Shown: piece by piece, positions 42,085-46,323 of the stretch
How positions within the stretch are numbered: the first letter of the stretch is position 1
How the letters are laid out: each line of letters opens with the position of its first letter
Origin: Circinella umbellata
Taxonomy: Eukaryota; Mucoromycota; Mucoromycetes; Mucorales; Lichtheimiaceae
Assembly: GCA_025093555.1 (NCBI GenBank)
Contig: JAIWNF010000075.1
Span: forward strand, 1-64,000
DNA length: 64,000 nt
Direction: 5' to 3'
Made by a program: the position numbers and the translations under genes
The notes under the pieces: generated by a model
The model's input: the letters and a program-made list of their open reading frames with translations, nothing else
Databases searched by the model: none
Told to the model about the DNA's origin: nothing

Positions 42085-45000
42085 TTAATATCCTTGAACA
42101 GCAGTAATTTTCATTGGTTTAACCATTCTTTTGGGTCTAATAGAAATACTATCTTTTGCACGCCATTCTTGTGGTAATAAAAATCGAAATGAAGGATCTA
42201 ATAATTCATTGGAAAAATGCCAATATTTACGTTGTATTTCAATCACGGTATAAAGTGAGTCCACGGCACCCAAATTGGGTTTAATACTTCTTAAACATCC
42301 TTCATATTTTAATTGGGAATCCGGAACAAGTTTGGCAGGTAATAATTGTGCAACACAAGCAGCGGCACTATTAGCAAGTGGTTCTAATTCATAACCTCCT
42401 GTTTTGATAGAAAAGAAATAAATAATTAAATCTTCCCATTTTTTTTTGCCTTTTGGTTACATGTGTATATGTGTGTCATTCATTGTTTTTTTTTTTACCT
42501 TCAAGACTAAGGATAAGTCTACCTTGACACATTTCTTCAGCTAAATCTTTAGTTAGTTTGGTAAGTAATGCAAATCCCCGAGGAGTTACTTGATATCCAC
42601 CAATCTAAAAATAAGTCATTGTAATATTAATTAGATATTTGTGAATGTGAAATATGCACTTGATAAAAAGGTGAATATATATATATTACATTATCAGGAT
42701 GACCTTCAGCTGCATCAAAACCTGCTGAAACAAAAATCTAAAAGTAAAGAAGAAAATTGATAGTTAATAAATAATAAAGAGTTTCTTTCTTCTCCCTCCC
42801 CCCCAATAATTTTCCATTCATTACCATGTCGGGAGCAAATTGACGTGCTATAGGTAAAATGATATGATAAAACGCCGCAAGAAACTCAGTATCACCCATG
42901 GGTCCTTTGAAAAGAGATATAGATTAATATATTGTTTTGTTATATAGAATATGAGTTACCCAAATACATATATATATATAAGAAAGAAGAAATTATTTAC
43001 TTGGTTTTTCCTTAGAAGTATTAAAAGCAATATTGACATTAAAACCTTCACCACTATCTTCACCACATTGATCAGGTGCTCCTGTACGTGGATAAAAATG
43101 TCCATGTTCCCAACGATGAAGCGATATATATAAAACATTAGGATTTTTATAAAAGATCTTTTCAGTTCCATTTCCGTGACTAATTAAAAAAAATAACCAA
43201 CCCGCAATAATAAAATCAACTTGTTAAAATAGATCCATGGTAGATGGTTTTTTTTTTGTATGAAAAAAAAAGGTTTACTTACTGAATATCCCTATAGTAA
43301 TAATAGTACCAAAAATCAAAAAAAACATAGTCATTTATATATATAAGTAAAACCCTCTTACTATTCTATTCTTCTTTATTATATGTAGAAAGAAATACAT
43401 ACCAATCAATGATAAGTACTTTCTTTATCGTGTTTGGATATTTTTCAAGAGTGGAAGCTACTGCCACTGCGACATTGTTAAAAAAACAAAATCCCATGGC
43501 ACGATCATTTTCAGCGTGGTGGCCTAAGTGTCAAATTTTTTATTAGCAAAAAATCAAACTTAAGTATATATCTCCTCCCCCCAAAACAAAAGTAACAAAA
43601 AAAAAATTTAGGGGGGGGGGAGGAGGGGAGGAATTGACAGTACTGGTTTTTTGGGAAAAATGGGAGTGATAATTATGTGAATTAAATAGAAACAAAGAAT
43701 AATAAAATAATAATATACATTACCAGGAGGTCTAATAAGAGCGAATCCATTACGTAATGAACCTTCTACTACTTGATCTGTCAATTCCATTAATGAACCA
43801 GCTGCTAAACGTGCAGAAATACTTGTATAAAGTGGATGAAAAGGTGTATCTACCTCTATTATTATAATAATTAAGCCCGGGTGAGTATATGTTTTGTATG
43901 TATCCATGCCAACAAATAACAATCAACCCCCTCAAAAAAGAAAGTATAATATATATAAACCATGGTAACCAAATATTTTTTAAAAATTCTAAATATCCAT
44001 GTTCTTTTTACCTATTGCTAATTCACCACAAATCATTTCGTATACAAGTTGTGGAGGATTCACTAATGTAGCTGTACCATTTAACGCAGCGTGTGATGCA
44101 GCTGCACTAGAAAATCGACGTCGTTGTTTTCTTATTTGATTTCGATCGGCTTTTACCACTTTACCACCTTCCATACCTTGAGCTTTTCTTAAACTGATGA
44201 TATTTTTTGGTGTTGTTATCAAATCATTTGGAGATGCAGGTGTCGTCGGAGGTGGTGGTGAAGAAGAAGGTGAAGGAGTTTCTGAAGGAGATTGGTTTAA
44301 TAATTCACGAACGGAAAGAACACTATTACTATTCATCGTCGTAGTGGTGTCGGTTGCACGAAGGTTTGACTCAGTGATAAAATGATCAGTTTCATTTTCC
44401 ATTGACTCCATAGGACAATAACTTCCTACATGTAATAATCCATGTACTCGTACTAATTCTTTTATTGTAGCTTCTCTTGAACGTAAACGACTAAAATATC
44501 GTAAAAGCCTAAATATATATTTTTTGATGTTTAGTTAAAATTATTTCTTTTCCTAATATTGTGTGTGGGGGGAGAGTGAGTAAAGAAGAAATAAATAGTG
44601 GGGTTTTGTTGGGGGGTGGGGAAGGGGAAGGGGGGGAGGGGAGAGGGGTTATAAAAAAAAGAAATTGATAGATTATAATTGTGAAATATATATTCATCAC
44701 AGATATCACAAACCATCAGATAATAAGGAGAAATGGGGTTTTTTTTACCTATCGTTATATAAAGCTTTAAGAATCGCATTAATACGATCAGGACGTTCTG
44801 GATGAATATGTTCTTGAGAATGACAAGGACAATCATGCCATAACATTCGTTGATCCTGAACAAGACCTGTATGATGCTTTACCAGTGATAGACCTTCTTG
44901 TGAATAATAGAAAGTCCGATAATCTGCCCATGAAGTCTCACTTTCTTTACCTAAAGGTCCATACTTTAGTTGCCGTCTTCGTCGTCGTTGTTGTTGTTGT

Positions 45001-46323
45001 CGACGTCGTGATGATGATGATGATGACCCTTTTGATTTTTCTTCCTCGCTCTCTTCTTCTGCTTCCTCATCCATTATTTGACGTATAGATGATATTCCTA
45101 TCCAATCAGCATGATCAGCTGTCCAACCTTCATAATGTACAAAGAATACTAATTCTTCATGTTCATTTTCATTTTCATTATCTTCTTCATGTTTCATATT
45201 TCCAATTTTTTTCTTTCCATGCAAATGAGTATCATTATCATTCGTATGAATACTTCGTTTTAGTGTTGTATTCGTGGATCGTTCATTTCCGTTGGTCACG
45301 ATACGGGCGCAGTACCATTCTCGAGTATCATCATTCACCCATTTCAGTGCTTCAACTTGATCTCCCGCTCGATATGGCTTGGTTTGCTGTGTCATAGTCG
45401 TATGTTTAGATTTTGTTTGGCTTCTTCCATTCGATGCTATTTCCACCAAGAAAAAAAAATTGTCCAATCATCCAACCATTCATATAAAAAAAGTTAAAAA
45501 AAACTTGATCAATAAATACCTCCTCCCCAAATCATTTATCATTATTTATATATAATAATATTTAAATATCCAAAAATAAATAAATAATCGAGATAAAAAA
45601 ATACTAATTAAGAAAAGATTTACCATGACGATGATTTGTACGAGTCGTATTAGAAGCATTGCTGTTATTATTACGTTTCTTTTTTTGTAATACATTTGAT
45701 TCTTTTGATGAAGATATAGAAGAAGGTCCTCGTCGTCGTTTACGTGTGATTATAGACGATGATGATAACTGTTTATCATTAGTGAGAATCTTACCATTAT
45801 CTTGTTGTTCTTTTTTAATAACCGTGGATATAATTGGAGTAGGTGATGTAGTTGGGGGCGTTGTACCATTAATAGCAGCTACCACGGCAGCAGATGCAAC
45901 TGTTTTGGCAGATCTTGATAATTGTCGACGACTTCCTAATCCTAACGAAGAGGACGATGATGATGGAGAAGGTATTGCCGATTGGTTATTACCATTTGTA
46001 TGTTGATGAGAAGACGAACGACGTGGTCTTAATAATCGTGATTGATCTTGAATATGTTTAGATTCATTTGTTGATGAGGATGATTGAACCTATTCAGACA
46101 TAACATGACACAATCATCGATTGGTTTTTGTTTTTTTGCGGTTATAAAAAATAGAAAAAACAGAATAGGCAATAAGAAGATATAATTATATTTGTTAAAA
46201 GAAGGGGTTGGTAAGTTGATAGAGTTATTAATCTATATTTATAGATGGGATGGATGGAAAAAACAAAAGGGAAAATAAGAAAAGAAAAAAATAGAAAAGA
46301 AAAATATAAAATGCCCTTACCAT
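42085..46323 (-). CDS. class II histone deacetylase with N-terminal Tudor-knot-like domain
   Basis: Zinc-dependent lysine deacetylase, 880 aa in 12 exons: 46321-46323 (ATG only), 45624-46089, 44749-45436, 44012-44508, 43724-43855, 43403-43523, 43283-43291 (9 nt), 43001-43179, 42825-42904, 42690-42737, 42499-42604 and 42085-42398. Residues 1-155 are Ser/Asn-rich with basic KRRRGP-type clusters (nuclear localisation). Residues about 178-258 resemble a Tudor-knot/chromo-barrel domain ([36 protein letters not shown]). The deacetylase domain follows, split by a Ser/Pro/Thr-rich insert: [48 protein letters not shown] (zinc ligands Asp637 and His639), [13 protein letters not shown] and [10 protein letters not shown]. 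Tyr779 in the last motif indicates an active Hda1/class IIb-like enzyme rather than class IIa, which has His there. An alternative start is Met171 (45393-45395), which would keep both domains. Confidence 0.9.
43283..43291 (-). other. 9-nt microexon of the HDAC gene
   Basis: Reverse-strand sequence TAG|GGATATTCA|GTAAGT. The nine bases complete Trp636, encode Asp637 and Ile638, and give two of three bases of His639. They are needed to restore the invariant D-x-H-H-G-N-G catalytic motif between exons 43403-43523 and 43001-43179. Confidence 0.9.

Follow-up and report, generated by a model that had tools for sequence, protein, structure and literature searches.

A 9-nt microexon predicted to supply zinc-ligand codons of a Mucorales histone deacetylase and probably missed by a dozen public gene models

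The deacetylase gene and its 9-nt exon

The minus strand of the 64,000-nt stretch of Circinella umbellata DNA analysed here (the window) carries a gene, locus C184, that we modelled manually with 12 coding exons and 880 residues (Table 1). Sequence comparison and structure prediction indicate that its product is a class II (HDAC4/7-like) histone deacetylase (HDAC) with a chromo-barrel-like N-terminus. The protein matches the Pfam family PF00850 (Hist_deacetyl) with 279.7 bits, and the product of its paralog at locus C130 with 287.2 bits, against a curated cut-off of 27.9, which places both in the family. Judged by motif, all residues of a zinc-dependent class II HDAC are present: D637, H639 and D733, the pair H597/H598, and Y779. 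D637 and most of the H639 codon come from the microexon, so this set is complete only when the microexon is included. In HDAC6, zinc is held by D612, H614 and D705, and the HH pair and Tyr have likewise assigned roles (PMC10367051); motif alignment to HDAC6 chains places D637/H639 at D612/H614. The introns of the gene other than introns 6 and 7 are 85-240 nt long, a range that takes in these two as well. A first exon reduced to the start codon is also found at C130:126172-126170. At their N-termini, the Circinella minor protein P0046 begins like the C130 model, and Fennellomyces P0003 begins MVQS...HIQDQ, like the window gene.

Table 1. Coding exons of the deacetylase gene and the introns that flank its microexon (slashes mark exon-intron boundaries)
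Feature	Position in window	Strand	Remarks
exon 1	46321..46323	-	coding part is the start codon alone, ATG/gtaagg; likewise in paralog C130
exon 2	45624..46089	-	low-complexity basic N-terminus
exon 3	44749..45436	-	predicted chromo-barrel-like domain and beginning of HDAC region (CPC...HPERP)
exon 4	44012..44508	-	
exon 5	43724..43855	-	132 nt, equal length in paralog
exon 6	43403..43523	-	begins in PPGHHAE (H597/H598); ends with D635 and TG of the W636 codon
intron 6	43292..43402	-	111 nt, gtatgt...ctatag; in-frame stop if retained
exon 7 (microexon)	43283..43291	-	9 nt, GGATATTCA; phase 2 in, phase 2 out
intron 7	43180..43282	-	103 nt, gtaagt...aattag; if retained, CAG TAA stop from the donor itself
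exon 8	43001..43179	-	begins with last base of the H639 codon, then H640-G-N-G
exon 9	42825..42904	-	80 nt; region absent or altered in 8/13 skip-type public models
exon 10	42690..42737	-	third zinc ligand D733 (SAGFD)
exon 11	42499..42604	-	
exon 12	42085..42398	-	catalytic Tyr Y779 (GGYELEP) and stop codon

Exon 7 is bounded by a TAG acceptor and a perfect GTAAGT donor (...ttactatag/GGATATTCA/gtaagt). Taking a microexon as an internal exon of at most 15 nt with canonical splice sites, it qualifies with 9 nt between TAG and GTAAGT. It holds the last base of the W636 codon, the codons of D637 and I638, and the first two bases of the H639 codon. Exon 6 (43523-43403) ends in GATTG/gtatgt and exon 8 (43179-43001) starts with /TCACGGAAATGG, and the joined exons 6-7-8 read GAT TGG GAT ATT CAT CAC GGA AAT GG, that is, D635 W D637 I H639 H G N G. 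This splice model was made manually from the DNA sequence alone; the junction sequence spanning the microexon in the spliced message would be GATTGGGATATTCATCACGG. The original prediction for this DNA had placed a 9-nt exon with these two splice sites at 43283..43291, and we reproduce its coordinates, sites and frame. Its numbering (Asp637 and two thirds of the His639 codon, exons 6-8) is recovered if exon 1 consists of ATG only, and its view that the exon encodes one zinc ligand, the Asp, and two thirds of the codon of another, the His, agrees with the motif equivalence to HDAC6 D612/H614.

We enumerated the isoforms from the start of exon 6 to the end of exon 8 (523 nt), using GT/GC donors (28 in all), AG acceptors (23), introns of at least 40 nt and zero or one internal exon of at most 60 nt, the first donor lying 60 nt or more inside exon 6 and the last acceptor within the first 460 of the 523 nt. 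D[ILVM]HHGNG is present in one of the 106 open, in-frame isoforms, and this is the isoform with the microexon, as expected from the claim that only this insertion rebuilds DWDIHHGNG; no alternative junction within these enumeration limits gives the motif without it. The microexon isoform also has the top score (145.6 bits) against a profile built from 45 proteins taken as non-fungal, followed by an isoform with 124.4 bits, while the plain skip scores 122.0. When the 223 nt separating exons 6 and 8 were shuffled 20,000 times with dinucleotides preserved, not one shuffle produced an AG-N9-GT that completes the motif; the whole window contains one. When up to two mismatches are allowed, there is one match in the window versus a mean of 0.07 in shuffles. 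Across the 50.8-Mb genome assembly (210 contigs), the 17-nt signature AGGGATATNCAGTAAGT is found at two places, both in HDAC genes, and the control pattern (the signature read backwards) at none. On these matches and the isoform and shuffle counts, we reject a chance origin of the microexon.

Class, domains and paralogs of the enzyme

A fold search of the PDB with the predicted model of P0046 (mean pLDDT 69.5, pTM 0.72) returned HDAC4/7 at ranks 1-27. By sequence, single domains of HDAC4/7 score 283-286 bits, Clr3 235 and Hda1 225; two-domain HDAC6 chains reach 433-434 bits in total, with about 203-231 bits per domain in the two alignments listed. Judged by sequence scores and the modelled fold, the enzyme resembles HDAC4/7 more than it does Hda1/Clr3. 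The latter proteins were the comparison put forward in the original prediction; in this genome, the gene with relatives named Hda1 or Clr3 lies at a different locus, C168. The fungal enzyme has its closest fold and sequence in class IIa (HDAC4/5/7/9), and has the catalytic fold and DWD[IV]HHGNG in common with HDAC4/7. Vertebrate class IIa HDACs such as HDAC4 carry a His in place of the catalytic Tyr; among the fold matches, the title of PDB entry 2vqw names a His332Tyr gain-of-function. In contrast to HDAC4, the fungal enzyme retains the catalytic Tyr (Y779, in GGYELEP) and has a chromo-barrel-like N-terminus. Because the Tyr is kept, we describe the enzyme as class IIa-like and do not file it as a class IIa member. 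An H-C-P-C...H cluster N-terminal of the catalytic domain is invariant in the aligned Mucoromycota proteins, and we take it to recall the structural zinc site of class IIa HDACs.

Residues about 178-275 (44749-45436, minus strand) are predicted to form a chromo-barrel-like fold. The first PDB fold matches of the N-terminus are RBBP1, MSL3, MRG15/MRG701 and Eaf3, with E values from 0.0036 upward (none at or below 0.001) and TM-scores to the target of 0.48-0.74 for the first seven. Pfam gives Agenet/chromo/MSL3-like hits for this region, all of them sub-threshold. The chromo-barrel-like N-terminus and the HDAC domain are common to the aligned Mucoromycota proteins (34 with the query). The predicted architecture is a reader and an eraser in one chain, a chromo-barrel-like domain followed by a class IIa-like HDAC, which recalls the pairing of reader and eraser in Rpd3S (Eaf3 and Rpd3).

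PF00850 has matches at nine loci of the genome, that of the window included. In the paralog C130, a microexon (GGATATACA) is flanked by AG and GTAAGT, and its position and phases match those of the one in the window gene. Exons 5-10 have equal lengths in both genes (132/121/9/179/80/48) and equal phases, the catalytic regions of both proteins share 208 of 326 residues (64%), and 40 of the 63 fourfold sites shared by both paralogs in these exons differ. DNA identity is 62-81% in the other exons, while 8 of 9 nt are identical in the microexon, where the sole difference is a synonymous third base in the Ile codon. Purifying selection on a coding exon is a simple explanation for this near-identity. 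Intron similarity between the paralogs is weak (3/200 and 2/200 shuffles are as high), and we do not use it as evidence.

The zinc motif is read through without an intron at C90 and C1, and C135, C167 and C170 have one intron, in its second His codon. The Hda1/Clr3-like locus C168 has the upstream intron in common with the window gene (Trp codon, phase 2). At the site matching the microexon lies an exon of 14 nt (GGATATACACTTTG, C168:217397-217410), in agreement with the public protein P0168. Reading through the 87 nt that follow this exon likewise stays open. The C168 protein model is 100% identical over 376 residues to Circinella umbellata BDC45DRAFT_449100. Overall, the downstream introns of C184, C130, C168, C135, C167 and C170 occupy three positions in a 5-nt part of the zinc motif, namely in the codons of the first His, the second His and the Gly. 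Introns may have been gained here independently, or may have slid. The second His of DWD.HHGNG in the Hda1/Clr3-like family is Phe in 20 of 120 listed proteins (P0168-P0287), with 97 His and 3 other; going by genus, 19 of the 20 with Phe are presumably Mucorales. P0179 (Phycomyces blakesleeanus) reads DWEIGNG at the zinc motif, probably from a faulty model. The Arb2 domain (PF09757) has zero matches in this genome, and zero in the control genomes too, so the count is no evidence that the domain is absent.

Related proteins with and without the full motif

Two protein searches (best 120 of 4,458 and best 120 of 4,893 matches) yielded 167 proteins, 78 of them taken as fungal (50 Mucorales, two of which have the source 'lgn' and were placed by similarity, and 28 other fungal) and 89 as non-fungal. 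All 89 listed non-fungal proteins read D[WF]D[ILV]HHG[NQ]G, and the full motif is found in 28/28 listed proteins from Mortierellomycotina, Umbelopsis and Bifiguratus. The 78 listed fungal proteins comprise 64 with DWD[ILV]HHGNG, 12 with DCHGNG, one with DWHGNG (P0042 from Parasitella, differing from DCHGNG) and one with DWDIQ and then a jump into the middle of exon 8 (P0033 from Rhizopus arrhizus), and all 14 exceptions to the full motif fall within the 50 listed Mucorales proteins. Thus, among the matches listed, DCHGNG occurs in 12/50 Mucorales, 0/28 other fungal and 0/89 non-fungal proteins; the 12 models come from 9 genera (Phascolomyces, Zychaea, Fennellomyces, Choanephora, Cokeromyces, Mucor with M. 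saturninus, Spinellus, Pilaira and Parasitella).

If exon 6 is spliced directly to exon 8, leaving out the microexon, exactly DCHGNG results. Its Cys arises because skipping in TG/G...CA/Y leaves TG/Y, a Cys codon, and the letters therefore imply that the genes concerned have phase-2 introns at these two sites, separated by 9 nt. This suggests that the microexon is present in the DNA of other species, although full-motif proteins elsewhere may come from genes without these introns and the DCHGNG proteins could in part be real transcripts. The original prediction had proposed looking for the same microexon in related Mucoromycota; as far as protein letters go, its omission leaves a fingerprint in 12 Mucorales proteins. 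A search for relatives' DNA in viral contigs gave 9 pattern matches, of which zero were confirmed.

A midpoint-rooted tree, in which several deep forks are open, was built from 57 of the 78 fungal proteins together with C184 and C130 and served for placement alone; counts of label changes on it are uninformative for the skip label. DCHGNG proteins fall in the C184 clade, in the C130 clade and in other families, and their presence in both clades suggests that the microexon is probably older than the C184/C130 duplication. In several cases, tree neighbours differ in being skip or full (Choanephora/Blakeslea, Pilaira/Helicostylum and Spinellus/Phycomyces), which fits annotation better than evolution. 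P0046 from Circinella minor, annotated with DWDIHHGNG, is 97% identical to the C130 product (639/658 columns). It is the ortholog of C130 and the sole Circinella protein among the best 120 matches listed for the window gene, and these 120 include no Circinella ortholog of the window gene itself. The two proteins with source 'lgn', P0031 and P0044 (on contigs of 2,488 and 4,141 bases, placed among Mucorales), both read DWDIHHGNG and match genome-annotated proteins over their full length or almost all of it; they are probably transcripts.

Of the 13 skip-type models (the 12 with DCHGNG and P0042), 8 lack the region of exon 9 or have it changed, versus 1 of 38 tested among the 64 full-motif models. 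The eight are P0001, P0002, P0003, P0039, P0040, P0047, P0121 and P0152, and we have no account of exon 9 faults alongside the microexon skip beyond poor models. The 12 public Mucorales HDACs look zinc-free probably because the 9-nt exon was missed: a dozen published gene models probably omit it and hence lack the zinc site. HDAC repertoires read from these annotations run the risk of wrong pseudo-enzyme calls.

Splicing of the microexon and comparison with known systems

Based on these data, we propose that exon 7 is, with high probability, an old coding microexon, included as a rule and frequently overlooked in annotation. We infer constitutive inclusion and the following splicing mechanism. 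Two phase-2 introns of a Mucorales class II HDAC would interrupt the Trp codon and the first His codon of DWDIHHGNG, and the exon between them would measure 9 nt because the introns sit in these two codons. Introns 6 and 7 (111 and 103 nt) would each be recognised by their own ends, that is by intron definition, and be removed one after the other, with the perfect GTAAGT donor aiding the tiny exon. Apart from the intron after the microexon, none of the 11 introns of the window gene starts with a perfect GTAAGT; in C130, two of 10 do, one of them again after the microexon. An active enzyme would depend on inclusion, since two of the three zinc ligands are encoded by the exon, D637 in full and H639 for most of its codon. 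Gene-finding and alignment programs would tend to join exon 6 to exon 8, an error that would escape notice because the frame is kept and would thereby put DCHGNG proteins into databases. Conservation of microexon length is expected of any coding exon between two phase-2 introns and is therefore no argument for regulation. Nothing observed here requires regulated inclusion.

An additional layer of control, which we consider unlikely, is that incomplete removal of intron 6 or 7 stops translation at the active site, slow splicing around the microexon thereby tuning HDAC dose. Retention of intron 7 gives an immediate stop because CA/GTAAGT reads CAG TAA, and with intron 6 retained, the twelfth codon past that of the Trp is a stop; moreover, the CAGTAAGT stretch is identical in C130, and introns flanking plant microexons are often detained (PMC8831610). 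However, any GTAAGT donor that follows a phase-2 exon ending in CA yields an in-frame stop. Doubtful as it is, such control would be compatible with normal inclusion, the exon being included whenever splicing completes.

The original prediction had also raised skipping as an in-frame off switch, and part of this holds: skipping keeps the frame and turns DWDIHHGNG into DCHGNG, with the loss of both D637 and H639. It is nevertheless very improbable that conditional skipping serves to make a full-length zinc-free HDAC that acts as a scaffold or dominant-negative, and there is equally little reason to expect that the 12 public DCHGNG proteins are real isoforms. The exact exon 6-8 junction does recur in these 12 models from 9 genera, but close relatives are annotated differently, as fits annotation error, and the models count for little as evidence of a switch since 8/13 of the skip-type set are also faulty at exon 9, versus 1/38 of the full-motif set. 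In addition, both probable Mucorales transcripts (P0031 and P0044) carry the full motif, the GTAAGT donor of the microexon is strong, and length conservation is uninformative, so the switch is not supported. What weight the idea keeps comes from the existence of a clean in-frame skip and from the condition-dependent, switch-like microexon reported for Trichoderma Xlr2 (PMC11121469). Were it true, the zinc-free form would combine the chromo-barrel-like domain with a dead catalytic domain, and a 9-nt cassette would toggle a class II HDAC across Mucorales between two states, a deacetylase that binds zinc and a zinc-free scaffold of full length that binds chromatin, with DCHGNG as real isoforms, a scheme that we regard as highly unlikely. 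Finally, it is barely conceivable that there is no microexon, with the motif formed by another splice pattern or the HDAC lacking it and the 9 nt a chance match, given the single motif-restoring isoform in 106, the 20,000 shuffles with none, the same exon in C130 and the signature at these two genome places only.

Coding microexons have precedents in other systems. In plants, constitutive microexons of at most 15 nt are described as conserved, essential, coding and left out by annotation (PMC8831610); the omission by annotation is shared with the HDAC microexon, while the kingdom differs, and the word 'deacetylase' is absent from the main text of that paper. The Trichoderma Xlr2 microexon is absent from JGI models and required for a functional domain (PMC11121469). 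It is fungal and missed by annotation, as here; its inclusion is reported to depend on glucose, whereas for the HDAC exon we propose constitutive inclusion. A search of the open-licence literature by titles and abstract beginnings found no paper describing a microexon for Mucorales or for the catalytic site of an HDAC. Close parallels are fungal P450s: Fusarium CYP621A has an exon of 1 nt, and Phanerochaete CYP5141A1 one of 8 nt that lies in its I-helix AGHETT motif (PMC12940212). These are likewise tiny coding exons inside a highly conserved enzyme motif, and orthologs of CYP621A keep its exon, which public gene models overlook, as here. The P450s belong to another enzyme family and phylum and have reported RNA support, whereas the HDAC exon is modelled from DNA. 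A further difference is that the HDAC microexon, at 9 nt, is in frame: leaving it out shifts no frame and gives a protein of full length that lacks the metal ligands. The gene has a conserved paralog and a readily assayed in-frame skip product, and offers a testable example of a fungal spliceosome including an exon too small for both splice-site complexes at once. Microexons within catalytic motifs of fungal enzymes are thus known already, and the present case stands out as a microexon that supplies metal ligands and whose omission leaves an intact-looking product.
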